This document shows positions 1 to 57,199 of a DNA stretch of 64,000 nt, piece after piece (the first letter of the stretch is position 1; every line of letters starts with the position of its first letter). The position numbers were made by a program, and so were the translations under genes. Source of the stretch: Zygnema cylindricum (lineage: Eukaryota; Streptophyta; Zygnematophyceae; Zygnematales; Zygnemataceae); assembly GCA_037447655.1 (NCBI GenBank), contig JBBHKE010000674.1, positions 19,776 to 83,775 on the forward strand, given 5' to 3'. The notes under the pieces were generated by a model. That model was not told where the DNA came from and searched no databases. It was given only the letters and a program-made list of their open reading frames with translations.

Positions 1-358
1 GGACGTGCTTTTTCCCCATCGCTGCAAGTGCGATAATAATCCGTAGTGAATCGAACTTCACCACGGGAGCATAAGTCTCCTTGAAATCGATTCCCTCACG
101 TTGTTGGAACCCCTTACAAACAAGCCTCGCCTTGTATTTAATTATTTCACCCGACGCTCCAGTTTTGGTTTTAAACACCCACTTTGCATCAATCGCCTTT
201 TTCCCCTCCGGTAATTTCACTTCCTCAAAAGTTCGATTATCAACCACCGACTTAAATTCTCTCTCCCATGCCGGTTTCCACTTACTCTCCCAATCAACCG
301 ACCTTCTAGCCTCGACATAAGATTGAGGGTCGCTGGTCATATTTTCCGTAAGTGATTG
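1..358 (-). CDS. copia A reverse transcriptase, N-terminal part (partial)
   Basis: The frame is open from the codon after the TAG (CAA at 356-358) to base 1. It begins Q-S-L-T-E-N and carries the RT start region: AKWVFKTKTGASGE, YKARLVCKGFQQREGIDF, TYAPVVKFDS and then MGKKHV at the edge. There is no independent initiation context at its start. Synthesis would need readthrough of the TAG at 359-361, or internal initiation at the ATG near 340. The catalytic YVDD box and RNase H lie outside the window. Confidence 0.85.
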
Positions 359-361
359 CTA
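353..361 (-). promoter_or_regulatory. candidate stop-codon readthrough site (TAG CAATCA), element A
   Basis: On the minus strand the codons read CTT TTG TAG CAA TCA CTT. TAG followed by CAATCA fits UAG-CAR-YYA, the leaky context established for tobamovirus replicase and used by soybean SIRE1. Coding similarity to B, C and D continues on both sides of the TAG. Function is inferred from conservation in four elements. Confidence 0.75.
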
Positions 362-10493: not shown

Positions 10494-11352
10494 TGTCTGA
10501 ATCGCCAAATCCTCAAAATAAACCAAGTTTTGGTCGTCCCCTCTCAAATACATCATGTGTGGCAGCTTTCGTCAACAAATCTGCCGCCTCCTCTTTTGTC
10601 GCGTATCACTTCAATCCCCAAAAAAAATATTGTACCTCTCCAAGATCCGTAACTTTGAAGTGTAATCCAAGGTAGCGTCTCAACTCATCAATGCCCTCCA
10701 ATTTGTCGCATGCCATCAAGAAATCATCCACATAAACAGAAAAGATGATTTGGTCAATTCCTTCACCTTTCACGTAAACTCCAGAATCGGACGTAGTGCG
10801 TACAAATCCAAACTTCAATAGTACTTGATGAAGTCTCAAATACCAAGTGCATGACGCTTGTTTTAAACCATATAAAGACTTTCTCAAACGCCATACATTT
10901 CCTTCCTGCAAAGGAGAGACACCTTCCAGTACCTTCATATATATCTCTTCCTCCAACTCACCATTTAAAAACGCGGTTTCAACGTCCATTTGATGGACGT
11001 GCTTCTTCCCCATCGCTGTAATTGCAATAGTAATCCGAATTGAGTCGAACTTCACCACGGGAGCATAAGTCTCCTTAAAATCGATTCCCTCACGTTGTTG
11101 GAATCCCTTACAAACAAGTCTCGCCTTGTACTTAATTATCTCACCCGAAGCTCTAGTTTTGGTCTTAAAGACCCACTTTGCATCAATAGCCTTTTTCCCC
11201 TCCGGAAATTTCACTTCCTCAAAAGATCGATTATCAACCACCGACTTAAATTCTTTCTCCCACACCGGTTTCCACTTACTCTCACAATCAACCGACCTCC
11301 TAGCCTCGACATAAGATTGTGGGTCGCCAGTCATATTTTCCGTAAGTGATTG
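10494..11352 (-). pseudogene. copia B RT fragment fused to RNase H tail
   Basis: Starts directly after the TAG at 11353-11355 and carries the RT fingers and palm, including VYVDDFLM near 10725. At GEVQY (about 10620) the frame breaks (an extra T in a T-run) and then jumps near 10597 to the last 30 or so codons of the polyprotein (EEAADLLTKAATHDV ... GRPKLGL, stop near 10515). Roughly 230 codons of RT thumb and RNase H are missing. No active enzyme is possible. Confidence 0.9.
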
Positions 11353-11355
11353 CTA
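11347..11355 (-). promoter_or_regulatory. candidate stop-codon readthrough site (TAG CAATCA), element B
   Basis: CTT TTG TAG CAA TCA CTT at the integrase/RT boundary, the same codon position as in A, C and D. Confidence 0.72.
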
Positions 11356-16649: not shown

Positions 16650-17582
16650 AATTTATTAACAGTAATAGCGATTCACGGTGTAGTGGAAAGAGGTAAGCAC
16701 CAAGTAGAAAAAACTGGGGGGACATTGCTCAGAATAAGAAAATTTGTAAGTAAGGGTAAGGTTTCATCAGGCGAAAAGTGGGGATGTTTACACAAATCCG
16801 CGACTCTCCGTACCAAATCGTACTGGCTATTTTGTTTTTATACGAAAAACAACATAACATAGAATCTTCCCAATACTCTTCGAAGGTCTTAGAGGTAATA
16901 CTAGCCGTCGGATGTTGATCTGCGAAGAGATCACTTCATTTTTCTTTGTAACTGTCAACCCACCTCGAGGAGGTAGGTTGGCAGATACAAAAAAAAAAAT
17001 CATGACACGCTGGACAATTAAGCTACGTGTCATGATGGAAAACCAACGAAAATTCTTAAGATTTGCACATGACACGCGCTTTCCAAAATACAATTGGAAA
17101 TAAAAACGAAATTTCGCAACATTCCTTCGTCACGCTATTTTCGATAACTTTTGTTCGTCACACTATTTATCTCAAAGGACTTTCGTTATGTTCGAAAACA
17201 TAAACCCTAAAAAATGAGTTGGCGTACTGACGGGCGTCTGTAAAAAGTATAAAAGTTTTGTCGCATGATTACTTCGTACGCAGGTACATGGTACGAAAGT
17301 GAAGATTTGAAGTTAAGCTTGTCGGTGCTAAAAATCTGAAAGATATTCAATTTCGGATCGTACCTTGCGCCAATCAATTTAGAACACGTGGCTTACAAAC
17401 TATTCGTGATGGAACATCGACTCAGGGTGAACCTCCATCAGGCGAAAAGAGAGGTTCATTACTGGAAAAATTGCATTATAGTACAGGTCCAGCTCATTTC
17501 GTACATGGCTTTACTGTTTTTTTTTCTATATTTTATGCATAGTCCTCTATAATGGCATCTGCCGAAAACCCCCCCACATTCC
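16650..17582. other. no gene; short hairpins only
   Basis: Small palindromes (for example CCACCTCGAGGAGGTAGG near 16970 and CATGACACG ... CGTGTCATG near 17000-17035) suggest decayed MITEs. No coding signal. Confidence 0.4.
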
Positions 17583-18605
17583 AATGGCATTATGTCGCAA
17601 ATCTCTGAATTAAAAGGCGATTTAACCTTGTGGCACCATCGGATGTGTCCCACATCTAAGACGAGTTTACGACGGATGATTAAAAAAAAGAGCTCAAGGG
17701 GATCAGATTTGGCGTTGGGGAAGAAAATTAACTGGTGTGAGGGATGTAGTAAATGGAGACAAATTTAAAAGCCGCATCTGGCTAAAAATCCTATGCATCG
17801 ATCTTAGCACCCGCTTAATCTAGTGCATATTGATTTATGTGGGGACGTAAAATCGGAGACGATTGGAGGAAACAAATGTATTAGAGTGGTGGACGACTTC
17901 TCTCGCTTCACATGGGAAATATTACTTAAACACAAATCCGAAGCATTTTTCCGCTTTCAAGAGTCGCATGTGATGGCTGAGAGGCAATGTGAGAGAAAAC
18001 AAAAGTCTATTAGATTGGATAATGGAGGGGAATTTCTTGCTTTAGATCCTTATTGTAAAGAGTGGGGAATTTCTCACCAATATACTACATCTTACGCACT
18101 GGTATCAAATGGCGTAGCCGAAAAAAAGAACCGCATTCTTCAAGAGACGGTACAAGCCATGGTACATGGATCTAGAAAGAGCATTAATTTATGGGGCAAT
18201 GCGAATTTGACGGCGAAATATATTTGCAACCAGAGGATTACATCGGTTTCGGGAGATAAAACTCCGTACGAATTGTGGTATGGCTGAAAACCTACTCTTC
18301 ACCACATTCGGATTTAGGGATGCCGTGCGTCGCTTTATATTCAAGCACAAAAGAGAAAAGGTAAATTTGCATCGAGGAGTTGGAGTGGTTACTTTGTGGG
18401 ATAAAGCACTAAAAGGAATCTTTATCGAGTTTATGGTATGATTCGAAATACCATTGAAGAATCCAAGAATGTGGAATTTCACGAGGATTTATTATCCACA
18501 ATCTCTCGATCGACTAAGCGACTTTCTTATTTTGATTTTCATGAAGAATTTGAAATTGGTGATCTTAATCACATTGAGGGTTTGGATTCACTGGAGATTA
18601 GTTGA
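17583..18605 (+). pseudogene. copia integrase fragment related to element C
   Basis: The plus strand matches element C from just before the integrase HHCC finger (ISELKGDLTLWHHRMC) through the DDE core (HIDLCGDVKSETIGGNK; SIRLDNGGEF, where the S-D-N-G-G aspartate is retained; SNGVAEKKN) to the region after GYS (HIEGLDS). Stops, frame changes and substitutions (for example W-C-E-G-C for N-G-C-E-G-C) show it is dead. There is no LTR, PBS or RT at either side, and it ends well before the integrase/RT boundary, so it says nothing about the readthrough site. It is in the opposite orientation to C. Confidence 0.88.
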
Positions 18606-20170: not shown

Positions 20171-21421
20171 TCACAGATGTAACGACGTGTCTAATGCACT
20201 TGTCACTATGTCATCATCTCCATCGCCTTCTTCAACCGACTCTTGTGAAACATTGAAGTCCTTCGTTTTCGGTTCGTCCTCGGTCTTGGCGCATTTTGTT
20301 TCACACTTTGGAGGTTTGCTTTCAAAAGAAAAGAATGGAAATGCACATGCTGGTGGCATTTCATTCGTCGACTGCGAGGTTTGTGACTGCAGATTGGTTC
20401 CTGGAGGAAGTATTACACCACTGGACCACGGCATTGACTGCTATGGATCAATATACCGAGCTTGCAAAACTGCTGATTTTCCAGCCCACTCCAAACCCGT
20501 CTGACCTGGAACACATACTTGAATAGGAACCTGGACAAGCTCCTGGGTATTGTTCAACTGCCTCTGCTGTGAGGTTCCCTGAGAACTGAAGTTTCCTTGC
20601 TTCCCCTTCAAAATGACATCTCGAGTTCCTTGGTTTCCTGGAGCTCCCTTGTATCTTGACGAACCAGCTTGCTCATAGGGCACCACAGGAGTAGGAACAT
20701 CTCCAAACCCCGGTTGACTGCTAAAAACAGCTGGTTGACCGAGCCTTACGCTATTCCTTCTCTGCAGATTTCCTGAGTAAGAAGATTGTGTTCCTATAAA
20801 CTGTGGCCATGTTCCAATCGCTTGTTGTCTATCATTGTTCACAACTTCTGGACATTGCTGAATCCCAGAGCCTTCCTTTCCTATTTGAGGCTCTGCTCTT
20901 GATATTCCTTCATTCCTTCCTCCCATTGAAGTTCCTGTATGGATTCCTCCTCCATCTCCACGTGGTTGTTGTTGTTGTTGTAATTGCTGTTGCTGTTGTT
21001 GGAGTTCAAGCTTAATCTGCTGTTGTAAAAGCCAAAGGTGATGTTGTTGCTGTAAAATTTGCTGAAAATTTTGTTGAACCGGAGATCCCTGGTTCAGTGG
21101 TAAGATTTGAGAATTACTGACAGCTCCACAAGGTCCTGTAGGAAGACCAGAGCTTGCGGCAAGGAGAGGGTAAGCTTGTGGTTGATTGACATGAGGCATC
21201 AAAGATGGAAAAATATGCGGACAATTATTGAGAGCAAGGGCTTGCTGTGGTAAGACGGGGGGACTCTGTACTGAGGGTACAGAGTTTTGAGTTTGAGATT
21301 CAGCTTGAGGCATTTGTCTTGCTCTGTCTAAAAGCTGCAATTGTTGCTGGAGAAACAACTGTTGTTGGAGATTCAAGGCTTGAAATAATGGCCCACTGGT
21401 CCCATGCAAAGTCAACTGTTG

Positions 21422-21459
<38 letters not shown>

Positions 21460-23849
21460 GCGATGTCTGATCAAGAGGAGAAACCCCTTGAAAATTTTGT
21501 TGAGCCTGTTGCATTTGTATTTGCTGCTGTAACAGATATGCTACAAGAGGCATATCAGCAGTTGGCAACATCTGCAAGTTTGGTGGTGAAGTTGGCAATT
21601 GACCTGGTTGTTGTAACCATTGTCCTCTTTTATCAACAGAAGTTGGAGGTGGAGGACCTACAGAGATGTTTCCACCGCTACTATGTGAAGAAGACTCACA
21701 CGGTCCCTCTACCCCCCTCTGTGGCAGTGTATACTCCTCTTTTCGGTTCACATAATTCCCCTAGTGCCTTTTCTTCTTCCTTTCTATAGCTCTGCGATTC
21801 CGTGAAAAAGCAACACTCCCAATATTTGGAGGAGATCCTTGTTCCTTTCCTCCCGGCCAAAAGACACTCGGTTCTGTCTCACTTCTCAGCTTTTTCGAAC
21901 CAGGTGTCTCACTTACACCTTCAACCTCAGAAGGTAGTCTCCTCGGTATTAAGGGATTTTGGCGCCCTGTTGACTGCAACTGACTTTCTGTTACAGGCAT
22001 CGATTCCAATTGCTTATGTTTGTCATATGCCCGGGTCTCCCCAATGCTTTGTCCGGACCGTCGTGTTCGATCACTCCAAAAATTGTCGGTGACAATAGTC
22101 CCTTTCTTGTCTACACACAAAAATCAGAAAGATACAACAGGATATAGCACGTTAACGCTCATAGCCCAAAAAGCTAGACATACTACACTTGAAGCCAGTA
22201 GTTGTATATGTACAGCCCTGCATCTTCCTTGACAATTCAGTGGCCAGTGGTCCATTTGATTGTATTGATAAAGTTAAGACCGGAAATACAACAGTCAAAC
22301 TTGATGTGAGCCACACACCAGTCTGAGAAAACTTGACAGCTGTACGGTCTTCAGTAGAAGTGAAACATCTATGAATATGGTTTATGAAACGCATGAAACT
22401 TTCCTGCTAGTATCTGTGTCTAGTCATCCTATTAATACAGCTGCGTGAAAAATTCCCTATGTCGGAATCATTGTACCACCGCCAACCCAACACATTAAAA
22501 GAAAACTATTTTAAATGGAACGAATCAAAGTTATCTGCACTGAACATCCGTACTACCTTACAGTGAACAGGGCACAAAGCCTGATACCTGCCAGTGTGTG
22601 CCTCCGACCACCGAGGAGTGACTGCCAATACTTCCATTGTGGGGGCTCATACCATGTTGTAGGAATGCCATGAGACAGTGGCGCATGCTCACCTGCTGCT
22701 ACGGGCGCAGCTACTGGACAAGCGGTACTGATATCCTCAGCGGAGAGGCTTGTTGTTGTTAAAGCTGATCCAGCACTCTGACTTGTTTGTTGTATAGGAA
22801 GTATCATTGACATTTGAGCCAACGAACTATTTCCTTGCGGCTTCTCAGCTGCTAGTTCCAAATGTTGTTGTAAACAAGCTTTCAGGATGTCTGAATTGCA
22901 AAGTCTTGGAAGACTCTCTGGGAGAGAAGGTGTCGTTGAGGGACTTGCAGCCAAGGCTGAATTTGCGCACACTGCTTTGGTCACCGTCTCTTTTTTGGTA
23001 TGAATTGCAACTTCCCCGCGTGGATTTGCCCGCCCTCCATTAAGAAGAAATTGTTTCGTCTCTGTTACGGTCACGGAAAAAAAGTGTGAATGGAAATTGG
23101 AAGTGAAAGGGCTTGCGAATCCCCTTCCCATCAACTCTGATTAAAATTTATCAGCCCATGGTCCGTCGTGCTTGATGCTTCTAATAAACTAAAACTACGC
23201 TTAGGTTATCTTTTATCAGCAACAGCGGCCAAATTATGAAACATCTAAAACACTACTCTGTTATGACCAGGTCAGATTCAGCAGATCAGAAGCTACAGAT
23301 AAGTTCTGTACAATCTACACAATCTATTTTACAGTCTACTATACAAACATTTACTATACGATCTACTAAAAAAAAATCTACTATACAAACATCTACTATA
23401 CAGTGACCATCAACTGGCACTAGATCTTCTGGCTAAGTTGAGACCAAATGATTACATTATGGAGGAAACTAGAAATTATAATCTTCTAGCTTTGATCGAA
23501 AATTTGACAACTAATCATGAACCTCTTTGCCACACCTTAAGCCTAACGTAATACCTTTCTTATAGTAGTATGTTACTTTAAAAAAATACACAACTTCTTC
23601 GCAAATACCTGCATCATCACCCTCTTTCCTCCTCCCTCTCCCTTTTTCCTCTCCCTCTCCCTTTCTCTCTGCTATCTTTCCCCCTCTCACTCTCCCTCTC
23701 CCTGTAGATGAGAGAGCGGAGAAAGCAATAAGTGATGCCATTCCGTACCAGAGCTTTGCATTGAACTGATTCGAGGGTAGAGGTTGATAAGTCCTTCCAC
23801 TGCAGCTTGTACTTCCTGATCTTTTGGATCAATATGAGTGCCCTTATTC
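20171..23849 (-). CDS. glutamine-rich protein gene, three exons, two in-frame TAGs
   Basis: Inferred minus-strand model. A possible first exon starts at ATG 23849 (MNKGTHIDPKDQEVQAAVEG...) and its end near 23700 is uncertain. Exon 2 lies within 23134-22693 and ends CAG|GTGAGC. An intron spans 22692-22111 (acceptor TTTGTGTGTAG), and exon 3 is 22110-20171. The exon 2/3 junction joins in phase 1 and reads PVAA-D-KKGTIVTDNFWSDRTRR. Exon 3 has a basic stretch (AIERKKKRH), long Gln runs encoded mainly by CAA (about 21430-21465) and by CAA/CAG elsewhere, and an acidic C-terminus (EEGDGDDDIV). The composition suggests a nuclear transcription- or chromatin-associated protein; I do not recognise the family. 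In-frame TAGs at 21761-21763 and 20441-20443 interrupt it, each with coding-like sequence after it. It may be a recent pseudogene, a gene with recoding or unseen splicing, or have sequence errors. Confidence 0.6.
20435..20443 (-). promoter_or_regulatory. TAG CAGTCA in host gene: readthrough-type context
   Basis: The codons GAT CCA TAG CAG TCA ATG fit UAG-CAR-YYA. After the TAG, 89 codons stay open to a TAA/TAG-type end at 20171-20173 and look like genuine protein sequence. A single C-to-T change of a glutamine codon would also produce it. Confidence 0.4.
23620..23705 (-). repeat. CT/CCCTCT-rich tract in intron 1 region
   Basis: Irregular CTCCCTCTCC units directly downstream of the putative first exon, read as GGGAGAGG on the gene strand. 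Confidence 0.8.
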
Positions 23850-24834: not shown

Positions 24835-25428
24835 TGAAAGGATCTTACACAAAAATCAGAGTGCAAGACTACAACGGAAGCAAAAATAAAACATACAGAT
24901 AAGAACGAACTGTCCACAAAAGCCAATATATTTCATAGACATTTTCTCCCATAAAAGATTTTTTTTCCTACTCCCTCTAATCTGCAGTATATAGTACAGT
25001 TACTGTGACGTCACTACTTCAAACTACAAATCAACCCAAATCATATAGTGCGCACTAAGTGCGTACAAGTCAATACGTGTCAACAGCGAAACTCAAAGAA
25101 CTGCCGGCACAACTCACACGTACGACCAAAACTAACTAAAGACAAAACATACATACTAACCGTACACACCAAACGAAACATAACCTGGTCATAGTCAAAC
25201 TGAATCTCCAAGAATCCAAGAAAACTACAATCCACTACACGACTAAATAAAACCACTCGTGACCACTAACTTAGCGTAATGACAAATTAATCACACTAAC
25301 TTAACGTAACGACAAATTAGCCAGCCGCGCGACAGACCGCGACGGCCGACTACAACTTTGACTGAAAAAGACAGAATAGTCGGCCGCGCGATAGGCCGCG
25401 ACGGCCGATTACAAATTTTGACTTAACA
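24835..25428 (-). repeat. 3' LTR of element C (594 bp)
   Basis: Minus-strand ends TGTTAAGTCAAAATTTG and GATCCTTTCA. Its U3 holds two tandem duplications: a 30-bp unit (CACTAACTTANCGTAANGAC, 25264-25320) and a GC-rich unit (CCGCGCGAYAGNCCGCGACGG, 25325-25425). TATATAC near 24986 is a candidate TATA box. Confidence 0.98.
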
Positions 25429-25441
25429 ATCCCCCTCTCAA
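25429..25441 (-). other. polypurine tract, element C
   Basis: Minus strand TTTGAGAGGGGGAT, immediately before the 3' LTR; the plus-strand DNA primer site. Confidence 0.9.
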
Positions 25442-25452
25442 ACTTGTAATCA

Positions 25453-27009
25453 TCACATCAAACCTAATTTAGGTCTCCCCCTCAAAAGTACATCATGGGC
25501 CGCGGCTTTTGTCAACATATCCGCTGCTTCCTCCAACGTCGAAACATATAAAAATTCAATTTCCTTTGCCGTGACCAAATCGCGTACGAAATGCCACTGA
25601 ATCCTAATATGTTTTGTCCTCTTGTGAAAGACAGGATTCTTCACCAATGCCATCGAACTCATACTGTCAGAAAATATTTTCATACAACCTATTGAAATCC
25701 CCAATTCGCCAAGTAGTTCCTTGATCCAAATCGACGCCTTAGATGTGTGACACGCCGCCATGTATTCTGCTTCGGTTGAACTTAAAGCAACAGTTGGTTG
25801 GAGTCGTGAACTCCAAGAAACTGACGCGCCGCCAAAAACAAAAGCATATCCAGACGTTGATTTTCCTGTGTCAAAATCTCCACCCCAATCTGCGTCACAA
25901 TATCCCACGCACTCCAAAGATGTCCGTCCAGATCGGAACAATAAACCAATCTCGATTGTACCCGCAAGGTAACGAAATATCCTCTTCACGGCCTCCCAAT
26001 GAATCTTTTTAGGAGCCTGACAAAATCGGCTCACGACAGAAACTGCGGCTGAAATATCCGGTCGCGTGGCCACACTTAAATACATTAAACTTCCAACGGC
26101 CTCACGATAGGGCACGTGGACAGTTTCCTCCTCCTCAAATTTGCGATATTGTAGTTTGGAATCTAGTGGTGTCAAAACCGGCTTAGAGTCCAACATAACA
26201 AATTTTGTTAGTACTTCTTTGCAATATTGCGCTTGCGACAATTTAATATCTCCATTATCGTATCTTAAAACTTCCACTCCAAGAATATATCGTACGTCCC
26301 CCAAATCCGTGACTTTAAAATGTAGACGTAGGTACTCCTTCAATTCCGCGATTTGCGTCAACTTGTCACATATCATCAAAAAATCATCCACGTAGACAGA
26401 AAATATAATTTGATCTTCCCCCTCACCTTTTACGTAAACTCCAGAGTCTGAAACTGTTCGGACGAATCCAAATTCGGTAAGGACCTTGTGTAATCGTAAA
26501 TACCAAGTCCGCGGTGCCTGTTTTAGTCCGTACAAGGACTTTCGCAGCCGCCATACCTTCCCCTCCTTCGACACTACTCCCTCCGGAACTTTCATATAAA
26601 CCTCCTCCTCTAAGTCACCATTCAAGAACGCCGTCTCTACGTCCATTTGGTGAATGTGCTTTTTGCCGGCAGCGGCAATAGCAATAATCATCCTCAAAGA
26701 ATCAAACTTAACAACCGGTGCATATGTCTCCGTATAATCTATCCCCTCCCTTTGTTGAAAGCCCTTGCAAACTAGCCGAGCCTTATGTTTTACTACTTCC
26801 CCCGATGCACCAGTTTTGGTTTTAAAAATCCACTTCGCATCAATAGCCATTTTACCCTCCGGTAGGCTTACCTCCTCAAACGTACGGTTGTCGATAATAG
26901 ATTGAAGTTCTCGCTCCCACGCCGGTTTCCAATGCTTCTCCCAATCGCATGATTTTCGTGCTTCCACATACGATTGTGGATCGCCCGGCTTATTTTCACA
27001 TAATGATTG
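25453..27009 (-). CDS. copia C reverse transcriptase-RNase H (readthrough domain)
   Basis: 518 codons open from the CAA following the TAG. RT: AKWIFKTKTGASGE, GFQQREGIDY, DVETAFLNGDLEE and the catalytic YVDD at 26383-26394. RNase H: CDADWGGD, TSGYAF, STEAEYMAA, DSMSSMALVKN, RTKHIRIQWHFVRD, and the tail EEAADMLTKAAAHDV. All catalytic signatures are present and there is no other stop or frameshift. The first 14 codons have no ATG, and the first in-frame residue that could initiate is far from any leader. I infer that it is made as a C-terminal extension of Gag-PR-INT by readthrough. It would perform cDNA synthesis in the virus-like particle. Confidence 0.93.
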   Translation of the reverse strand, partial: QSLCENKPGDPQSYVEARKSCDWEKHWKPAWERELQSIIDNRTFEEVSLPEGKMAIDAKWIFKTKTGASGEVVKHKARLVCKGFQQREGIDYTETYAPVVKFDSLRMIIAIAAAGKKHIHQMDVETAFLNGDLEEEVYMKVPEGVVSKEGKVWRLRKSLYGLKQAPRTWYLRLHKVLTEFGFVRTVSDSGVYVKGEGEDQIIFSVYVDDFLMICDKLTQIAELKEYLRLHFKVTDLGDVRYILGVEVLRYDNGDIKLSQAQYCKEVLTKFVMLDSKPVLTPLDSKLQYRKFEEEETVHVPYREAVGSLMYLSVATRPDISAAVSVVSRFCQAPKKIHWEAVKRIFRYLAGTIEIGLLFRSGRTSLECVGYCDADWGGDFDTGKSTSGYAFVFGGASVSWSSRLQPTVALSSTEAEYMAACHTSKASIWIKELLGELGISIGCMKIFSDSMSSMALVKNPVFHKRTKHIRIQWHFVRDLVTAKEIEFLYVSTLEEAADMLTKAAAHDVLLRGRPKLGLM

Positions 27010-27012
27010 CTA
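27004..27012 (-). promoter_or_regulatory. candidate stop-codon readthrough site (TAG CAATCA), element C
   Basis: CTT TTA TAG CAA TCA TTA. The element is otherwise intact and almost unmutated, so this TAG is unlikely to be decay. It sits between integrase (ends D-F-L-L) and RT (Q-S-L-C-E-N). Confidence 0.85.
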
Positions 27013-30000
27013 TAAAAGAAAATCGTCCTCCCTCTCCGCCGAGATAAAATAATATGAATTTTCCACATTCCCCTTACCATCAAAAGAAAGACGAGCCGGT
27101 TTCTTTCCCCTATTTTCTCGCATACTCCTCCTCGGCTCAAATTCTTTCTCCTCCTTTGCCGATTCCTCCTCGATGACATGTGGACCACTCGATTTAGAAG
27201 ACGAAGATTTCCTCGTGTCCGAAGACATTCGGGAATTTTCGCTTCTCCAATCCCCACCAATGTTACCAAAATTTACTTTCTCCTTAATTTTACCTTTCCC
27301 CCACTTAACATTGGATGTGGATTCCGGCTCAATTTCCCAATCCGAACCCTCAATGTCATTAAGATCACCAATTTCAAATTCCTCATGAAAATCAAGATTA
27401 GAATGTCGATTAGCCGATCGAGAGATTGTGGATAATAAGTCCTCGTGAAAATCCACATTTCTTGATTCCTCAATGATATTTCGAATCGGATCATAAACTC
27501 GATAAAGGCTCCCTCTCTCACTATATCCGACGAAATAACCACTCCAACTTCTCGATGCAAACTTACCCTTCCTCTTTTGTGCTTGAATATAAACCGACGC
27601 ACGACATCCCCAAATCCGAATGTGGTGTAGAGTAGGCTTGCGCCCAAACCACAACTCATACGGAGTTTTATCACCCGAAACCGACGTGATTCGCCGATTG
27701 CAAATATAATTTGCCGTTAAAATTGCATCGCCCCATAAATGAATACTCCTCCCGGATCCGTGTACCATGGATCGTACCATTTCTTGAAGAGTACGATTTT
27801 TCCTCTCGGCAATGCCATTGGATTCCGGTGAGTAAGATGCGGTATATTGATGAGAAATTCCCCACTCTTTACAATAAGGATCAAAAGCAAGAAATTCCCC
27901 TCCGTTATCCGATCTAATAGATTTTAACTTTCTCTCACATTGCCTTTCGGCCATCACATGCCACTCTTGAAAGCGTAAAAATGCTTCGGATTTGTGTTTA
28001 AGTAATATTACCCATGTGAGGCGAGAGAAGTCGTCTACCACCACCATGATATATTTGTTTCCACCAATCGTCTCCGGTTTCACGTCCCCACATAAATCAA
28101 TGTGCACAAGATCAAGCGGATGCTTAGATCGATGCATCGGATCCTTAGCCGGATGCGGCTTTCGGATTTGTCTCCCCTTACTACACCCCTCACATCCGTT
28201 AATTTTCTCTCCCGACGCCAAGTCTAATCCCCTTACGCTTCCATTTTTAATCATCCGTCGTAAACTCGTCTCCGATGTGTGACACATTCGATGGTGCCAC
28301 AAGGTTAGATCACCTTTCAATTCGGAAATTTGCGAAATAATGCCATAAGAATTTGGTTGGGATTTCGGCCGACGCCATTTTAGTCGACTATGCATAAAAT
28401 CCGTGACCTCTCCTTCACCTATTTGTACACCATCAGATCGTACAATTTTTATTGTGGAATCTCCGTACGCAAGTACACTGCCGCCCGCTCGTTGAATCTG
28501 CGGTACACTGAGAAGGTTCACTGAACCTTCGGGTAAGTACAAAACATTAGTTAATTGAGTTTGCATAACTTTTTCTACTCCACGTGAGTCCAAACTTGGT
28601 AAATCCAACCGTACAGTACCCACGGTACTTATCGAAATCACTTGTCCACTTGCGACAGTGATTCTTTTTGGTACCGTAAGTTCGCGAAAATCGTCAAATA
28701 GTGAAGCGTCGGTACAAACGTGATGTGACGCTCCAGAGTCAATAATCCACTCTTTTTCGTGTAACGTAGAACCTGCCAAAAGATCAACCGACAGGTTAAG
28801 GGCGGAAAATATTTGTGCTTCGTCGCCTCCCTCAAAGTAATCGTCACCCATAAAGTGTCCTCCTCCTCTTCCATTGCGGCCTCCACGACCACCGCGGCCG
28901 CCAAGACGACCGCCACCGCGTCCACCGTATCGACCGCCGCCGTCTCCTCTACCGACGCCGTTTCCTCTAGCGCCGCCGCCTCCTCTACCGCCCGCTCCTC
29001 CATTTTCAGCCTTTGAATAACATTGGGGGCTTATATGGCCCCATTTCCCGCAAAAATGGCATTGACACTCCTTGTCCGGGCAAGAAGCCGCCATGTGACC
29101 AAGTTTGCCGCACTGAAAGCAAGCAATATTGGTTAGATCTGAATATCCGGGTTGGGAAGGAGATCTCCCGGCCCTTTCGTGTCCTCTTCCCCCTCTTCCT
29201 CTCGGATTTCCACCTCTTCTACCTCCTCTTCCCCGAAGATAATTAAGATCGGGCGTTTCCGGTGTCGTCGCATTGAGGGAACCGGTCGGTTGGGGTCCCC
29301 TCGATGAACTCGGACGATTCGCCTCGGTGGATTTGAGGAAAGTAATAATCGAATCCAAAGTGTTCGAATCCCTCGATAAAAGAATGTCCCTCAAATGTAT
29401 CATTTTTTCCGGTAAGGCATGGATGAAGACCGATGCCTTATCACTCTCATCGATGAACTTTCCCAAGTTTGTGAGTTGCTCGATAATAATATTGAATCTC
29501 TTCGCGGCTTCATCGATCGACTCACTCGACTTAACCTTAAAGGAGGTATAATCGGTATAAATGTGTTGCCCCTTATTTTGAAGACTCTTTTCGAAGTGAT
29601 TCTCAAGAGCCACCCAACAATCATGGGCAAATCTTCGGGTAAGGAATAGATCATGTATAGAAGTGCTACATGATTGAAATAAACCGCCGATAGCGGAAAG
29701 ATTTTTCTTCGTCCACACACGATAAGCTCTCCGATCCGAGGTAGGCATCTTGTCCACCCCTTTTACCACCTTCCAAAGCCGTTTCAATTTAAATTGACCT
29801 TTGATATATTTCTTCCACGATTGATAATTTGTACCATTGAAGATGACAATCTTGCCGGACATAGATTCAACCGGTTCGTCCCCTTCACTCCAATCATCGA
29901 GATCGGAATCATCATCGATTGGAAGTTTCCCCTTTCGAATAAATTCCCTCGTCTCCTCCTCATCTCCTCCACCTTCTTCCGTATCGCCGATGCTTTGATC

Positions 30001-30333
30001 CGGAATCGGATCTCCGAATAATGGAGATCTAGTAACACGGTTTGCCTCGGAGATTCGCTGATCCACATAACGGAAAAGACCATCCATCAGTTTTTGGAGA
30101 CGATCTCCCATCGCGTCATCTTCCTCCTTCTTTTTCCCCTCATTCTCCTCTTTTTGACCGACAGGATCGATCGGAACGGTCTCCTCAAAAGTTTTGCCGG
30201 TGAAAGCAAATGGAGTTTCTACTTCCGGATCCGAAGATGATTCGGATGGATCCGGAGGATCCGGATCCGGAGGTTGCGGAAATATCGGAGAAGGCATCAA
30301 AGGAGAAGGGGTATTTTTCTTCTTTCTCCCCAT
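27010..30333 (-). CDS. copia C Gag-protease-integrase
   Basis: 1107 codons from ATG 30333 (MGRKKKNTP); the frame stays open 15 codons further upstream, but this start matches A and D. Approximate residues: acidic/proline-rich N-terminus 1-155; UBN2-type gag from FNGTNY (165) to about 340; RGG stretch 367-387; CCHC knuckles 405-418 (CFQCGKLGHMAASC) and 426-438 (CHFCGKWGHISPQC); second RGG stretch 446-492; protease DSGAS at 532; integrase zinc finger (WHHRMCH 679, CEGC 714) and DDE residues in HIDLCG (746), SDNGG (809) and AERKN (843); Arg/Ser-rich C-terminal tail ending at the TAG. Supplies capsid, protease and integrase. Copia elements normally read Gag-Pol as one frame through RT, so stopping after integrase is unusual. 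Confidence 0.95.
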   Translation of the reverse strand: MGRKKKNTPSPLMPSPIFPQPPDPDPPDPSESSSDPEVETPFAFTGKTFEETVPIDPVGQKEENEGKKKEEDDAMGDRLQKLMDGLFRYVDQRISEANRVTRSPLFGDPIPDQSIGDTEEGGGDEEETREFIRKGKLPIDDDSDLDDWSEGDEPVESMSGKIVIFNGTNYQSWKKYIKGQFKLKRLWKVVKGVDKMPTSDRRAYRVWTKKNLSAIGGLFQSCSTSIHDLFLTRRFAHDCWVALENHFEKSLQNKGQHIYTDYTSFKVKSSESIDEAAKRFNIIIEQLTNLGKFIDESDKASVFIHALPEKMIHLRDILLSRDSNTLDSIITFLKSTEANRPSSSRGPQPTGSLNATTPETPDLNYLRGRGGRRGGNPRGRGGRGHERAGRSPSQPGYSDLTNIACFQCGKLGHMAASCPDKECQCHFCGKWGHISPQCYSKAENGGAGGRGGGGARGNGVGRGDGGGRYGGRGGGRLGGRGGRGGRNGRGGGHFMGDDYFEGGDEAQIFSALNLSVDLLAGSTLHEKEWIIDSGASHHVCTDASLFDDFRELTVPKRITVASGQVISISTVGTVRLDLPSLDSRGVEKVMQTQLTNVLYLPEGSVNLLSVPQIQRAGGSVLAYGDSTIKIVRSDGVQIGEGEVTDFMHSRLKWRRPKSQPNSYGIISQISELKGDLTLWHHRMCHTSETSLRRMIKNGSVRGLDLASGEKINGCEGCSKGRQIRKPHPAKDPMHRSKHPLDLVHIDLCGDVKPETIGGNKYIMVVVDDFSRLTWVILLKHKSEAFLRFQEWHVMAERQCERKLKSIRSDNGGEFLAFDPYCKEWGISHQYTASYSPESNGIAERKNRTLQEMVRSMVHGSGRSIHLWGDAILTANYICNRRITSVSGDKTPYELWFGRKPTLHHIRIWGCRASVYIQAQKRKGKFASRSWSGYFVGYSERGSLYRVYDPIRNIIEESRNVDFHEDLLSTISRSANRHSNLDFHEEFEIGDLNDIEGSDWEIEPESTSNVKWGKGKIKEKVNFGNIGGDWRSENSRMSSDTRKSSSSKSSGPHVIEEESAKEEKEFEPRRSMRENRGKKPARLSFDGKGNVENSYYFISAEREDDFLL

Positions 30334-30378: not shown

Positions 30379-30390
30379 GCTCCGATACCA
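30379..30390 (-). other. primer-binding site, element C
   Basis: TGGTATCGGAGC on the minus strand, two bases inside the LTR. Confidence 0.93.
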
Positions 30391-30392: not shown

Positions 30393-30986
30393 TGAAAGGA
30401 TCTTACACAAAAATCAGAGTGCAAGACTACAGCGGAAGCAAAAATAAAACATACAGATAAGAACGAACTGTCCACAAAAGCCAATATATTTCATAGACAT
30501 TTTCTCCCATAAAAGATTTTTTTTCCTACTCCCTCTAATCTGCAGTATATAGTACAGTTACTGTGACGTCACTACTTCAAACTACAAATCAACCCAAATC
30601 ATATAGTGCGCACTAAGTGCGTACAAGTCAATACGTGTCAACAGCGAAACTCAAAGAACTGCCGGCACAACTCACACGTACGACCAAAACTAACTAAAGA
30701 CAAAACATACATACTAACCGTACACACCAAACGAAACATAACCTGGTCATAGTCAAACTGAATCTCCAAGAATCCAAGAAAACTACAATCCACTACACGA
30801 CTAAATAAAACCACTCGTGACCACTAACTTAGCGTAATGACAAATTAATCACACTAACTTAACGTAACGACAAATTAGCCAGCCGCGCGACAGACCGCGA
30901 CGGCCGACTACAACTTTGACTGAAAAAGACAGAATAGTCGGCCGCGCGATAGGCCGCGACGGCCGATTACAAATTTTGACTTAACA
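30393..30986 (-). repeat. 5' LTR of element C (594 bp)
   Basis: Identical to the 3' LTR except G at 30432 where the other has A at 24874. The flank 30987-30991 is ATTTC, the second copy of the target duplication. Confidence 0.98.
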
Positions 30987-36639: not shown

Positions 36640-39600
36640 ATCTTCTAGTCACCTTTTAATTTGAGACCACTTCTCCTTGCAGAAAATTAACTTAGGAGAG
36701 GGCATAGGTTTAGTCATCATATTGGCTACCATCTCACTATCTGGTCTATACTCTAAACTGATTAATTTGTTTTCTACCTTCTGGCTAACAAAGTTTAGTC
36801 TAATGTCCATGTTTTGGCTTTGAAGTGGTGTTTAAGATTGGCATCGATTGCAATGGCTGCCTGATTTACAAAAAAAAATATTCACGCCACTTTTAAGATG
36901 AACAAGCTCACCAAGCAAAGACTTGACCCACATCAACTCTTTTACAACAAAGCAAGAAGCTATATACTCAACCTCCATAGTGGACTGGGCAATTACCTTT
37001 CGTTGTTTACTGCTCTAACAACAAGCCCCATCTCCCACATAAAACACATATCCAGAGGTATACCTCCTCATACAAGCATCCCCATAACTAGCATCACTCC
37101 AAGTGGTGATGTCGCTATTGTCCCCTCCGAAATGCAACTATAGATCCCTAATCCCTATCAGATATCTAAGGACCCTCTTAGCTGCCGCCCAATCATTCTT
37201 AATGGGAGAATTCAGACTCCTAATTAGCACTCCTATTGGTGCAGCTAAATCCGACCGGGTACAATTTATAAAGTAGATTAAGCTGTCATCTACTTGCCTG
37301 TAAGGAATAGCTTTCATGAACTTTTGCTCTTCAGAACCTAATTCATCATTCAACATTATAACTCCCTCTTCCACACTCCCTTCACTTCCCTTCTTTAGCT
37401 CTATTGGAGTTGTACAACTATTAGCCTTTTCCATTTGAAATTTCTCCAGCATGTTTCCAATGGCTACCATCTAAGTTAATCTGATTATTTTCCTATCTCT
37501 GTCCCTAAATTCCCAAAATGTACTTTGTCTCCCCCATATCTTTCCTTTCAAATCTACCTTTTAGATCCGTTTTCAGTTTATTAATTTTATCCATAGATTT
37601 ATTTTAGATAAGCAAATCATCAACATAAATAGCAAAAACAATAATTCCTTTGTCATCTTCAAACAGATAAATTGAGTGATCTAGGCTGATCTGAATGTAT
37701 CCCAAACCTGTAAGAAACTCATCGAGCTTCCTATTCCGTTGGCGGGGCGCCTGTTTCAGTCCATACAGAGATTTGATCAATCGACATACCTTGCTCTCCT
37801 TCCCTTACTCCACAAACCCTTCGGGTTGCCTCATAAAAATCTCCTCTTCCAACTCTCCATGCAAGAAGGTCGTTTTGATGTCCATTTGATGCATTTCCAT
37901 GTCTTTCGTTGCTGCCAGACTGACAAGTATCCGGACGGAGGGAAATTTGACGACCGGAGCAAATGTCTCCTCGTAGTTAATTCCCTCTTTATGATCAAAT
38001 CCTTTTGCCACTAACCGAGCCTTGTAGCGCTCAATGGTGTTATCCGGGTTAAGTTTTAGTTTAAATACCCACTTACACCCGATTAGTTTATGGTCACGTA
38101 GACAGTCCACAATTTCCAATATATTTGCCGCCATTCAGTCATTCCCATTACTATTGTCTACCTGGTTTCTCTGATGATAGTTCATCGCCTCACCATAAGT
38201 TTGGGGTTTATCGAGGCGAGACAGTTTGGTTACCTTGTTTTTAGCTTGTTTTTTTTGCAGTCTTTTGCTGCTTCTCCTTCCTCCTTCAAAATTTGATGCC
38301 GGAATAGATGGTTGTTGTGGATTCTTTTGAACAATTTTGACTTCTCCCCTATCCCTTGATTCTCGATCTATTTCCACCATGTCTTTCGCTTCTAGTTGAG
38401 TTATCACTTGAGGTTCCACGGCTGATTCTTTCTTTATCTGATTTGTACCTGCAAGGTTTTCATCTCTTTGAAAATCTTGGTAGTTAGGAAAATCAAAGTC
38501 ATAAGAACTTTTTGACTCAAATCTGATTTTGACTAACTTTGTATGCTTAAAGGGATCTACAGATTTCCCTTCATCCATAATTACCAGGTGCTTAACTAGA
38601 ATTTTGTCTTCTTTTCTAAGATCCTAAACACTACACCCTTTTACATCCTCATAATATCCTAGCAAGTATCCTAGTTTTCCTTTAGGATCTAACATCCAGT
38701 TTGATCGATCTGTATCTAGACTGAACAGTATACGACCGAAAACCATTAAGCGTGATACATCTGGTATTTGGCCAGTCCATCTCTCATAGGGCGTTTGTCC
38801 TTTGCTTTACTCCATGATGTTGTACTCCATCTTTTCTAAAAAAATCCTCAAACTGGTTACTCCCACTTGTTTAAGTATGCTCAAACTTCCCTCCATTATC
38901 ACTTCTCACTCTCTTGATTGGGGTTTCATGGAGTTTCTCACTCCATGCTTTGTATTGCTTAAATTATTTTGGGGCTTCTGATTTATATTTCAGAAAATAT
39001 ACTCTTAAATATCGAAACCAATCACCAGTGATGGTCATCATAAACGTTTTATCTCAGGGTGACAGCACTCTTGCTGGTCCCCATATATCTGTGTATACTA
39101 AATTCAAAACTTTTTCTCCTAAATAAGTGGCTGCTTTTGGGAAGGGTAACATGTGTGCCTTACCTTGAGCACATCCGCTTCAATCACTTGGATTCTCATT
39201 TTCTCCAAACTGAATTCCTTTCACTTTGCCCATCTTGTTCATTTCTTTTAACTAATCTAAATGCACATGTCCAAGCCTCTTATGCCACAACATTATATCA
39301 TGAAAACCAGAATAATAAAGTTTTTTTCTTCTCATTGCTTAAAATCAGCCTAAACATCCCTTGGCTACCTTTTTCAGCGGTGAAATATAAACTTCCTCCT
39401 CAAAACTAGCAGTGAAGACTCCTTTCCTTCTGCTAGTTTCAAAACCTTTATCATCTAACAGTGATGTTTATATGAGATTTTTGTTCAACTCAAGAATAAA
39501 CAACCATCAAAAGAATGTAACTATGGATATTTTTCCTTTCATTAATACTTTCAGATCCACCGATCCTACCAAAGTAGCAGTGACTATCCTCTCATCCCCA

Positions 39601-49374: not shown

Positions 49375-49650
49375 TTAAGCTAGAATGCTCTAAATTTCAC
49401 TAAGGAATGAAACATAGCAAAACGACAAGCTAAGACGAAAGTACTAAACAAATCTAAAAGTACTATCGTACTAAACTAGACGTACGACAATTATAGACGC
49501 GAAACGAAACGACAAATGTTTCGCAAAATCTATAGAACTTTATCGAAACTTACATTAGAGTACTTTTGATACATTCTAAAAAGTACAGTTTTCCTTTCGC
49601 GAAATCGAACCGATTTCGCGTGCGTACGATTCTTTCAATGAATCGTAACA
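49375..49650 (-). repeat. truncated 3' LTR of element D (276 bp)
   Basis: Starts TGTTACGATTCATTG at 49650 on the minus strand and matches 54816-55091. The other 299 bp of the LTR are missing. Confidence 0.9.
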
Positions 49651-49680: not shown

Positions 49681-51234
49681 TCACATCAACCCTAATTTAG
49701 GTCTTCCTCTTAGAAGTACATCAAACGTCGCCGCCTTAGTAAGCATATCGGCAGTTTCCTCAAATGTCGATACATACAAAAATTCCACTTCTTTTGCCGC
49801 TACCAAATCTCGTACGAAATGCCATTGAATCTGTATATGTTTAGTGCGTTTGTGAAAAACGTGATTTTTCACAAGTGCCATCGAACTCATACTAACCGTA
49901 AAAATTTGTAAGCATCCAATCGAAAATCCAAGTTCGCTTAACATTTCCTTTATCCATATTGATGCCTTGCTTGCATGGCACGCCGCTATATACTCGGCCT
50001 CCGTTGAACTTAGTGCCACAGTTGGTTGCAAACGCGAACTCCACGAAATCGTTGCTCCACCAAACAGAAACGCATATCCGGACGTTGATTTTCCCGAATC
50101 AAAGTCTCCGCCCCAATCGGCGTCGCAATATCTGACGCATTCCAACGATTCTCTTTTAGATTTGAATACAAGATCGATATCCATAGTTCCCGCCAAGTAT
50201 CGATATATACTCTTGACGGCTTCCCAATGTGATTTCTTTGGCGCTTGACAATATCGACTTACAATTGAAACGACCGCTGAAATATCGGGCCGCGTACCTA
50301 CACTTAGGGACATTAAACTTCCAATCGCTTCGCGGTACGGTACATCTACCGTCGCTTCTTCCTCAAACTTTCGCAATTGACTTTTTGCATCCATAGGCGT
50401 CGAAATTGGTTTTGCATCAAGCATAGAAAGCCGAGTTAATACCTCTTTACAATATTGTGCTTGACTTAACTTTATATCCCCGTTCTCATTACGAATCACT
50501 TCAATTCCCAAAATATATTTTACTTCGCCAAGATCTGTGACTTTGAAATGTTGTCGTAAGTACGCTTTCAATTCGCGTATACGTATCAAACTATCCGACG
50601 TCATCAAGAAATCATCGACGTAAACCGAAAATATAATTTGATCTTTTCCTTGTCCTTTCACGTACACTCCAAAATCCGAGATCGTACGCTTGAAACCAAA
50701 ATCCAAAAGTACTTTGTGTAGTCGTAAATACCAAGTGCGAGGCGCCTGCTTCAATCCGTAGAGCGATTTGCGAAGACGCCATACCATGCCTTGTCGTGAT
50801 GTCACGCCTTCGGCTACCTTCATATAAACTTGTTCTTCTAAGTCTCCATTTAGGAACGTGGTCTCCATATCCATTTGATGAACGTGTTTCTTCTTTGCAG
50901 CGGTAATCGCCATAATCATCCTTAAAGAGTCGAATTTCACAACGGGAGCATACGTCTCCGTTTAATCTACCCTCTCTCTTTGCTGAAATCCTTTGCATAC
51001 GAGTCTCGCCTTATATTTTACTACTTCACCCGATGCACCAGTTTTAGTTTTGAAGACCCAATTCGCGACAATCGCCTTCTTTCCTTCCGATAAATTTACT
51101 TCCTCAAATGTCCGATTTTCCACGATTGATTTATACTCCTTCTCCCATGCCGGCTTCCACTTTGTTTCCCAATCACACGAATTTCTTGCCTCCGCGTATG
51201 ATTGAACGCCGGCCAGATTCTCGCACATTAATTG
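49681..51234 (-). pseudogene. copia D reverse transcriptase-RNase H, one nonsense codon
   Basis: Continuous with the integrase frame across the TAG at 51235-51237. RT motifs: NWVFKTKTGASGE, LVCKGFQQRE, VYVDDFLM near 50615. RNase H: CDADWGGD, STEAEYIAA, VSMSSMALVKN, RTKHIQIQWHFVRD. TAA at 50962-50964 replaces the tyrosine of the D-Y-T-E-T-Y segment. The first codons are CAA TTA ATG. Confidence 0.92.
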
Positions 51235-51237
51235 CTA
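51229..51237 (-). promoter_or_regulatory. candidate stop-codon readthrough site (TAG CAATTA), element D
   Basis: CTT TTA TAG CAA TTA ATG. The nine bases TAGCAATTA are exactly the tobamovirus leaky context. It is at the same codon position as in A, B and C. Confidence 0.82.
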
Positions 51238-54200
51238 TAAAAGGAATTCCGTCTCCTTCGCATCGGAGACGAAATAACGGGAATTGGAATTCTCTCCACC
51301 AATTTTATCATAAGAAAGCCGATTTGGTTTCTTTCCTCTATTCTCTCGAGTACTCCGTCTAAGGACCGGAACTTGTTCCACAATCTTCTCCTCCTCGTCC
51401 ACATTCGATTTTGAACTCGAAGATTTTTGACTTTCCGTCGACATTTTGGAATTTCGGCTCACATTACTCCGAACATCAATGTCAATGTCCAATTTCTCCA
51501 AACTCGAATTAACATTTGATTTTCCCTTCTTGATGTTAACAATGGATTCCGGTTCCTCATCCGAATCCGAATCCTCAATGTCCGGGAAATTGGCAACATT
51601 GTCTACCTCATAAAAATCAAGTTTCTTCTTCAATTCCGCCGATTTTTCAATAACCGATTTTAAGTCTTCGTGAAAATTAACATTTCGGGATTCTTCCACA
51701 ATACGACGAACCTGATCGAATATACGATAAAGATTTCCTTTCGTACTATAGCCCACTATAATTTCGAGCCAACTTCTCGCCGCAAATTTCCCTTTCCTTT
51801 TCACTTGATCGACATATACCGTAGCACGATATCAACAAATTCGGAGATGATGGAGAGCCGGTTTCCGCCCATAAAGTAATTCGAATGGTGTTTTATCACC
51901 GGAAACCGAAGTAAGTCTCCGATTACGAATGTAATTGGCCGTGAGGATAGCATCTCCCCATATTAAGATACTTTGAACGGCCGAATGCACCATCGCTCTC
52001 ACCATTTCTTGTAAAGTCCTATTTTTCCTTTCGGCAACTCCATTTGATTCCGGAGAATAAGGTGAAGTAAATTGTTGGGTAATACCTTTCTCCTTACAAT
52101 ACCTCTCGAATGCGATAAATTCGCCTCCATTATCCGAACGAATGGCTTTCAATTCCCGTTTGCATTGTCTTTCAGCAAATGCATGCCACTCAATAAAAGT
52201 TTCAAGAGCATCTGATTTCCTCTTCAATAATCGAACCCACGAAAATCTTGAATAGTCATCAACGATGACCATAATATATCGGTTTCCTCTGAGGCTCTCC
52301 GGCTTAATTTGTCCACATAGATCGACGTGGACAAGCTCCAAAGGATGTTGAGCCCAAAATTTCACATCCTTCGTAGGATGTGGTTCCCGAATTTGTAGTC
52401 CTTGACTACATCCATCACATCCATTTACTTTTTCGCCGGTAGCAAGATCCAATCCTCTCACACATGCCGTTTTTATCATTTTCCTCAATTTCCCTTCGGA
52501 TATATGACACATCCGATGGTGCCATAACGTTAAATCTCCCTTTAATTCCGAGATTTGATTTAGAATGCCCGTGGAAGAAACATTCTTCCTCGGTCGCTTC
52601 CATAAAAGTCGACTATGCATCGAATTGGTGACTTCGCCTTCGCCGATTAATTTGCCGTCGGCGCAATATATGAGAATCGCCGAATCACCTCTAGCGACCA
52701 CGCTTCCACCGGCACGCTGAATTTGAGGTACGCTTAATAGATTCACTGAACCATCCGGAATATATAGGACATTCAATAGACGCGCCTCCGAAATAGTTTC
52801 ATTTTCAAAACGGTCCCATGTAGGTAAATTCAATCGAACGGTACCCACTTTATCAACCGTAATCGTTTGTCCACTTGCAACCGTAATTAATTTTGGTACG
52901 GTAAGTGAACGCATGTCGTCAAACAATGTAGCGTCCGTACACACGTGGTGAGACGCTCCCGTGTCAATAATCCACTCCTTTTCGCGTGCGTCACTTGGTT
53001 CACTTAATGAACCAATAGAGAGGTGAAGACAAGTGAATGTTTGTCCTCCTTCGTCTCCTTCAAAATTTTCCAAGTCAACAAAATTTCCATGGTTGCCGCC
53101 ATGGCCGCCATAGCGTCCAGGACCACGACCACTATCACGTCCGCGACCGCGACCTCCAAAACTGCGACCGCCTCTTACTCCTTCTCTACTAAATTTAGAG
53201 TAGCATTGTTGGCTCGTGTGGCCTAGTTTCCCACAATTGAAGCATTCTTTCTCCTTTTCCGGACAAGAGGCTGAAATATGGCCGGGCCGGTTGCAACGGA
53301 AGCATAAGACGCTGCTACCATCATTTTGGGCAGACCAAATTTTTAGATTTCCACCCCTATCAAGCCATTTTCCACGACCTCTCAGACCTCCTCCTTTTCC
53401 ACCCCCTCTTCCACGGAAATAATGCAAATCTGCGAATTCGGGAGCGGTCACATTCAAAGATCCCATGCTCAAGGAGCCTTTTGAAGAGCAAACACGATTA
53501 CTTTCTGCCATATTTAAATAATTCACAATAAATTCGTAAGTATTATTTTCCCTTGCAAGTAAAACCTCCTTGAGGTGGATCCATTTATCCGGTAACGCAT
53601 TCAAAAAACCGGTTACTTTGTCCTCCTCGGTGATCACTCTTCCATTGTTAAGAAGTTGCTTCACAATAATATTGAATCTCTTCACGGCATCATCAAAAGA
53701 TTCATTGGATTTCATTTTAAATTGCATGAAATCGGAGAACACGTATTGCCCTTTGTTTTGGATTCCCCTCTCAAATTGGGATTCCAACGCCTTCCAACAT
53801 CCGTGTGCGGTGCTATGCGTGAGGAAATGATCATGCATGGAAACTGAACACGTTTGCATCAATCCGGTGATAGCCGCAAGATTCTTTCGCCTCCACAAAC
53901 GACGAGCCTTCGCATCTCCGACCGGCATTTTCTCTTCTCCAAATACGACCTTCCAAAGACCTCTCAAAATCAATTGAGCTCGAATATATTTCTTCCACGA
54001 AGGGTAATTCGATCCATTGAATACGACGGTCTTTCAGGGCATCTGAAACATTTCCACTCCTCCTTGACTATCTTCTTCTAAATCGGAATCGTCATCAAGC
54101 TTAAATTTCCCCCTCTTATCTTTCACTTTCTTTGCCTCCTCATCACTATCATCGGAATCTCCTCCATCCGGATCGGGATCCGGCTCACCGTGATCTAACT

Positions 54201-54516: not shown

Positions 54517-55091
54517 TAAAAGGATCGATAATAAACTCTGAGCTCATTTACAAACACTTATAGCAGCAAAAGCATTCAGATTATAAAACATTAAATCAAC
54601 ATTGAAGAGACATTTTGAAAAATTCTCACATTAATATAAAACTGAAATTACAATTTATTCTCTATCTCTTCTATTACTCCATATAAACCTCCAATTTCTC
54701 ATTGATTGATTAACACACAGTCATGGTGTCCCTTAAATACAATACCAGCCATGGCGTGACACGTGTGAGCATGCGCCGCCAAGAATCCTCCAGAAATCTG
54801 CCACATGTCCGCAGATTAAGCTAGAATACTCTAAATTTCACTAAGGGTTGAAACATAGCAAAACGACAAGCTAAGACGAAAGTACTAGACAAATATAAAA
54901 GTACTATCATACTAAACTAGACGTACGACAATTATAGACGCGAAACGAAATGACAAATGTTTCGCGAAATCTATAGAACTTTATTGCAACTTACGTTAGA
55001 GTACTTTCGATACATTCTAAAAAGTACAGTTTTTCTTTCGCGAAATCGAACCGATTTCGCGTGCGTACGATTCTTTCAATGAATCGTAACA
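54517..55091 (-). repeat. 5' LTR of element D (575 bp)
   Basis: TGTTACGATTC ... GATCCTTTTA; the expected terminal CA is mutated to TA. The part 54816-55091 aligns with the 3' LTR, with about 14 differences in 276 bp. Confidence 0.9.
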
Positions 55092-56101: not shown

Positions 56102-56407
56102 TAAATGAAAAAACATTTTATCGGAATAGCAGATTCGATCCTCCTGATTTTTTTTTTTTGTGAATTGGTGTCCAAAAACAATGTCGGCCACAAAAAACAG
56201 AAATCGCATCAATGGAAGTACTGAGGTACCAGAAAACGACAAACATTACAATCCAGAAAGTATATGCGAATCTCGACACGATCCACTGAAAAGACCACTG
56301 CTTTCCGTACACCTTGTACTATCTATAAGACAGACGCGGTAGGGTACAATTCGACATTTGTGCACCAACCACAAGTCACGAGCATCCTTCCCCTACGGTC
56401 TAAATCA

Positions 56408-56413
56408 CACGTG
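56408..56413. promoter_or_regulatory. G-box-like CACGTG upstream of proline-rich gene 1
   Basis: ACACGTGT about 160 bp upstream of the TATA box. It lies outside the part duplicated in gene 2. Function is inferred only. Confidence 0.3.
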
Positions 56414-57192: not shown

Positions 57193-57199
57193 CTTTAAG

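Follow-up and report, generated by a model that had tools for sequence, protein, structure and literature searches.

How does a copia element make its reverse transcriptase (RT) when a stop codon stands between that enzyme and the integrase (INT) encoded just ahead of it? The question is raised by a stretch of 64,000 nucleotides from Zygnema cylindricum (contig JBBHKE010000674.1 of assembly GCA_037447655.1, positions 19,776 to 83,775; hereafter the window, by which all coordinates are given), in which four Ty1/copia elements, A to D, all on the minus strand, have one common in-frame TAG between INT and RT. The stop and the hexamer behind it read TAGCAATCA in elements A (353..361), B (11347..11355) and C (27004..27012), and TAGCAATTA in element D (51229..51237); the hexamer is thus CAATCA in A, B and C and CAATTA in D, and the junction peptide is F-L-L-*-Q-[S/L] in all four. 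The original prediction, made from the sequence alone, held that the TAG occupies the same codon in each element and is followed by a CARYYA-type hexamer as in leaky plant virus stops, and re-reading of the four sites bears this out. As argued below, it is likely that this TAG is bypassed by programmed readthrough, and RT would probably be made only when ribosomes occasionally ignore it.

The sample comprises four copies from three lineages, each with its own family of long terminal repeats (LTRs). A and B belong to one family (92% identity across 2.8 kb), A being truncated at the start of the window after 119 RT codons and B being a damaged copy; C and D each have LTRs of their own. The coding stretch of D lies at 49681..54033 on the minus strand, and its 3′ LTR copy (49375..49650, minus strand) pairs with 54816-55091 at 95.3% identity. 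When the codons of the other copies are aligned to those of C, no stop apart from the TAG is common to any of the elements. D has two private stops, a TGA at codon 598 of the piece before the TAG and a TAA at codon 92 of the piece after it, B likewise has two (405 TGA and 540 TAA), and A has none in the 825 codons (706 + 119) that can be aligned. B also changes frame inside the integrase region and again before the junction, and A does so between integrase and junction. The frame relation between INT and RT is kept at all four junctions, without a spacer. Element C has no further stop before its terminal TGA, and the claim that the remaining stops are private, with none in C, thus holds.

Element C, as the intact copy, shows the arrangement best (all of its features lie on the minus strand). 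Its 5′ LTR (TGTTAA...CTTTCA; 30393..30986) and 3′ LTR (24835..25428) are each 594 bp long and differ by one mismatch, and GAAAT stands on either flank. A probable primer binding site, TGGTATCGGAGC, lies at 30379..30390, 2 nt inward of the 5′ LTR, and the polypurine tract GAGAGGGGG (25431..25439) precedes the 3′ LTR; we take TGGTATCGGAGC to resemble the plant tRNA-Met primer site. According to Neumann et al. (PMC6317226), tRNA-Met primes all copia lineages that use complete tRNAs. The first open reading frame (ORF) runs from its first ATG at 30333 to the TAG (27013..30333, 1107 codons) and encodes Gag, protease and INT; the common TAG itself is at 27010..27012 and the CAATCA hexamer at 27004..27009. 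The second ORF (25453..27009), with 518 sense codons and a terminal TGA, opens at the codon right after the TAG in the same frame as the first and encodes RT and RNase H. Pfam matches to the first ORF, searched as two overlapping pieces, are Retrotran_gag_2, zf-CCHC, Pol_BBD, gag_pre-integrs, rve and SH3_retrovirus, and the second ORF matches RVT_2 (E 1e-78). The protease is assigned only through Pol_BBD and a D-S-G motif, which we presume to be that of the protease, and RNase H by homology, with no separate Pfam match. The order of the models is that of the GAG-PR-INT-RT-RH (Gag, protease, INT, RT, RNase H) arrangement of Ty1/copia elements (Pseudoviridae), and the element has the further hallmarks of two LTRs, a tRNA-type primer binding site, a polypurine tract and a 5-bp target site duplication (GAAAT). 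With a single mismatch in its LTR pair, the GAAAT duplication and no internal stop other than the TAG, element C is a young, recent insertion. We also observe that its Gag (28500-29400, minus strand) has by eye two CCHC-type knuckles, within one zf-CCHC Pfam stretch, followed by a long Gly-Arg-rich stretch, and that the latter recurs in four metagenome and related proteins (P0001-P0003 and P0241) that are described below.

The sequence behind the TAG evolves under constraint. Between families the proportion of nonsynonymous differences (pN) in RT is 0.12-0.17 and that of synonymous differences (pS) 0.73-0.81, as compared with a pN of 0.25-0.29 and a pS of 0.71-0.76 in the stretch before the TAG; synonymous sites are near saturation in these comparisons (pS 0.71-0.81). 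RT behind the common TAG is therefore under strong purifying selection. The same holds close to the stop, with pN 0.23-0.32 and pS 0.53-0.78 in the last 40 codons before it and pN 0.18-0.24 and pS 0.50-0.85 in the first 30 after it, although these are noisy values from 29-40 codons per comparison. Amino-acid constraint reaches the TAG and resumes after it, in these small edge samples, and the coding similarity on both sides that had been noted earlier is thus confirmed as low pN relative to pS up to and beyond the stop. Since all three families carry the TAG, their common ancestor most simply carried it too, and if RT has been selected behind an ancestral stop, then something gets past it.

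What might do so is suggested by the context of the stop. All four copies in the window have both marks of a type I readthrough site, UAG-CARYYA and a downstream in-frame ORF under coding selection. Both CAATCA and CAATTA agree with the 'CAA UYA' of tobacco mosaic virus (TMV) and beet necrotic yellow vein virus (BNYVV), and TAGCAATTA of element D matches in full the TMV nonamer of a test construct given in PMC2754532. In that source TMV readthrough, which inserts Tyr at the UAG, gives about 20% as much product as the sense control, and in some of the NAN-GUS experiments the figure approaches 40%. We therefore envisage a lineage of Ty1/copia elements whose polyprotein frame is broken by one amber codon between INT and RT. 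Most ribosomes would halt there and release Gag-PR-INT (1107 amino acids in element C), while a minority would decode the UAG of UAG-CAA-UYA as an amino acid, perhaps Tyr as in the TMV context (PMC2754532), and so produce Gag-PR-INT-RT-RH. The purpose would presumably be to hold RT-RNase H below Gag-PR-INT.

How much weight the motif itself can bear was assessed by counting. The window has seven occurrences of TAGCARYYA, where shuffling gives an expectation of 2.56, and the window-wide count was rejected as proof because three of 100 shuffles reach seven, which makes the count alone weak evidence. The weight of evidence rests instead on the common in-frame position. CARYYA follows only three of 1426 other TAG triplets (both strands of the window, the four junction sites left out), and thus even one ancestral event has a chance of about 0.2% of falling in this context; within element C, CARYYA occurs in frame at 5 of 1624 hexamer steps (3/1106 before the TAG and 2/518 after it). 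A further occurrence of the motif lies in a Gln-rich ORF of 439 codons (20435-21760, minus strand), without a Pfam match, which ends in TAG-CAGTCA and whose frame is open for 89 codons beyond the TAG. This ORF looks like a fragment of a host gene, and its TAG is more likely to be an ordinary nonsense mutation.

Relatives outside the window were sought by three protein searches, and the best 120 were listed of 356, 6529 and 166 proteins within the E-value limits, respectively. The first used the 796-residue piece of C before the TAG with a length rule of 0.55-1.75 (about 438-1393 residues), and was therefore blind to fused members of about 1570 residues; given this bias, the ratio of stopped to fused proteins estimates nothing. 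The third reached longer proteins, and its 120 listed matches include the stopped P0002 and the fused P0241 but not P0001 or P0003. The top listed matches to the piece before the TAG are three metagenome proteins, P0001, P0002 and P0003 (bit scores 539, 536 and 510; the next is 291), which extend from Gag to SH3 without RVT_2 on contigs of 4.5-5.5 kb. They are relatives with 43-49% identity and end at the TAG point or at most 3 codons from it. Such an end sets them apart from the other listed proteins without RT: among the 239 proteins listed in the first and third searches, 62 have no RT match, and of these only P0001-P0003 extend in their best alignment past residue 775 of the 796, the other 59 reaching residue 699 at most. 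The distance from an L[ST][YF] anchor to the stop is 23 residues in C, P0002 and P0003, 24 in D, A and B, and 20 in P0001, and a Phe that precedes the stop by 11 residues is present in C, D, A, B, P0002 and P0003 but missing from P0001, which ends T-E-D-S. As these three are known as proteins only, they could stop by another codon or bypass the stop in another way.

Together with P0241 these make four INT-bearing members of the clade outside the window. In an integrase tree of 44 hand-picked rows, P0001-P0003, P0241 and the window elements form a clade with support of 100/99, and in an RT tree of 36 hand-picked rows the clade has 100/100, with P0121 basal (position 84/52). P0121 is an RT-only ORF that begins 8 residues before a conserved D-P, while C has 9 residues from the stop to D-P; its start, seen in the protein only, would agree with a stop at this position. 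P0123 and P0169 are RT relatives that group with P0241 and are uninformative on the junction, both beginning inside RT. No relatives were found in viral contigs in three scans. Copia-like matches at 34-47% identity to C are present in five genome contigs labelled as bacteria (L001-L005), and two plasmid records (H1 and H2) encode copia-type RT with about 40% identity to C; in two plasmid records from rhizosphere actinobacteria, 4.6-5.2 kb long, an annotated RT-domain protein spans the whole query. Some of the copia RT records labelled as bacterial may be eukaryotic contamination.

Several observations weigh against readthrough or against its simplest form. P0241 is a single ORF of 1574 residues with Cys (then His) at the stop position; here too the Phe precedes this position by 11 residues, and visual inspection shows no indel up to the D-P of RT. 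Its placement beside P0001-P0003 in the integrase tree is weak (83/55), and therefore a single gain followed by a loss is as parsimonious on the tree as two separate gains. There is no clear downstream RNA structure, with z-scores of -0.6 to -1.1 in four 123-nt folds and a consensus fold of 20 pairs, of which four have changes on both sides, with a covariation term of only -0.06; a structural signal was rejected on these values. TMV readthrough is, however, directed solely by CAR-YYA, and type I contexts need no structure (PMC2194720). Conservation of the hexamer is also statistically thin across three independent families: where A, C and D can be aligned, the third base is kept anyway in 34 of 78 Lys, Glu and Gln codons, for which reason hexamer conservation was rejected as stand-alone proof, and 136 of 810 codons are identical. 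The check proposed at the outset, that CARYYA should be conserved above its flanking codons, thus fails to separate the hexamer clearly from its neighbors within the three window families. Finally, the F-L-L codons before the TAG are pyrimidine-rich in all four copies (8-9 of 12 nt), and a splice acceptor at this place is therefore possible.

Splicing is indeed the main rival to readthrough. The TAG would then belong to a 3′ splice site (in C, TTTTCTTTTATAG/CAA), with RT made from a spliced RNA, or with a retained intron ending at the TAG. Only 2 of the 313 AGs in the body of C match the 9/12 pyrimidines and preceding pyrimidine of the TAG, and there are precedents for splicing in Ogre, between coding blocks (PMC6317226), and in Drosophila copia (PMC2194720). 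Nine donor-like sites in the coding region of C were compared across copies: none has GT in every copy that can be read there, D is without GT at each of the nine, and the strongest (27566) lacks GT in A and D and falls in a gap in B. The comparison covers these nine sites, and C has two more donor-like sites in its LTR, a region that differs between families. Moreover, the codons keep the substitution pattern of coding sequence all the way to the TAG, and the first in-frame AUG of C comes only at RT codon 54, so that a leader-only exon could not yield full-length RT. The T-E-D-S end of P0001 would by its codons leave no pyrimidine tract either, if its stop is homologous. We consider splicing unlikely on these grounds.

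The other explanations have less to commend them. RT might be translated independently, by ribosomes that enter internally, reinitiate or start at a non-AUG codon behind the stop; this could be suggested by RT being a separate ORF, and by the annotation of P0121 as an RT-only ORF whose first residue is L, which would be a TTG start. Yet the four elements have no AUG in common near the start of the RT frame, the first in-frame one being codon 3 for D, codon 7 for A and B and codon 54 for C; conserved RT-frame residues in C lie before its first AUG; and such a model has no need of the frame that is kept without spacer at four junctions. We regard it as quite improbable. It is also highly improbable that the TAG is a fixed defect, either of non-autonomous elements supplied with RT in trans or inherited together from a damaged master copy. 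Other lesions or truncation do affect three of the four elements, but element C is a young insertion whose frame has no further break. Across families, all of which have the stop, conservation is higher in RT than in the stretch ahead of the TAG, and there are relatives, with 43-49% identity, whose ends coincide with this point or lie close to it. If the host were to decode TAG, alone or along with TAA, as an amino acid, there would be no stop here and the open frame on both sides would be accounted for, but this is scarcely credible: C has no other stop triplet in the 1107 codons before the TAG or before the end of the RT ORF, and the 47 Gln codons of its two ORFs are all CAA or CAG, whereas a recoded host should scatter such stop triplets among them. 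TAG as Gln was accordingly rejected, with no further TAG or TAA inside the two ORFs of C.

Programmed readthrough therefore remains the explanation we prefer, in a form somewhat looser than that originally predicted. An ancestral stop as the simplest history, a selected RT, a TMV-type context and three relatives that end nearby speak for it, and the Cys of P0241 speaks against its strict version. On balance we favor, with rather more reserve, a deep copia lineage with programmed UAG readthrough within pol, between INT and RT, whose particles would contain mostly Gag-PR-INT with a minority of RT-RNase H, and in which the stop is ancestral and was lost by P0241.

Suppressed stops are familiar in related systems, at other places. 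The stop of SIRE1 reportedly lies in a UAG-CARYYA context. SIRE1, a plant copia element (Sirevirus), has its suppressed in-frame stop between pol and an env-like frame (PMC2829016; PMC2194720), whereas in the window elements it is between INT and RT within pol. Tobamovirus and BNYVV type I sites (UAG CAA UYA) have the same stop and hexamers, but they serve the replicase of RNA viruses and no kinship is implied. The copia elements Tca2 of Candida (PMC2194720) and VdLTRE5 of Verticillium (PMC3441728) interrupt the polyprotein by UGA between gag and pol, unlike the TAG between INT and RT here; VdLTRE5 lacks CARYYA, and its authors say the same of Tca2. Among plant LTR retrotransposons, surveyed by Neumann et al. 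in 2019 with 5410 copia elements, two-ORF groups of copia and gypsy taken together have GAG or GAG-PROT in the first ORF and all remaining domains in the second (PMC6317226). The break in element C comes after integrase (rve and SH3 before it, RVT_2 after it), unlike the known two-ORF break upstream of integrase, and although these REXdb groups share a split frame with the window elements, the part of the survey text examined describes no split between INT and RT (PMC6317226). We found no report of a copia stop between integrase and RT in the open-licence literature (titles and beginnings of abstracts, with most subscription journals outside this scope), and the stoichiometry of Gag-PR-INT particles with minority RT-RNase H was not met in the available portions of the open-licence retroelement literature. 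What appears to be new is where the leaky codon stands, within pol.

The window also contains other repeats. A fragment, E (17530..18588, plus strand), is 85% identical to C across integrase, has six stops and ends before the junction. Another copia element, more distantly related and with heavy damage, occupies 36709-40747 on the minus strand, with a gag_2 match at 39947-40747 and RT pieces that match C at 31-44%. An inverted repeat pair of about 800 bp with 81% identity (56400-57201 and 61239-62012) is adjoined by direct repeats at 62019-63060.

Maintaining an excess of Gag over Pol is a task of retroelements, with a ratio of 20:1 given in PMC2194720. If the interpretation offered here is true, the break in these elements rations RT-RNase H only, and protease and integrase would be made at the level of Gag. 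For annotators it would follow that such copies should not be discarded as broken. A leaky codon like that of plant viruses would gain a new place, in a chromosomal element, and it would become testable whether it is the RT enzyme that needs to be limited, and not all of Pol.

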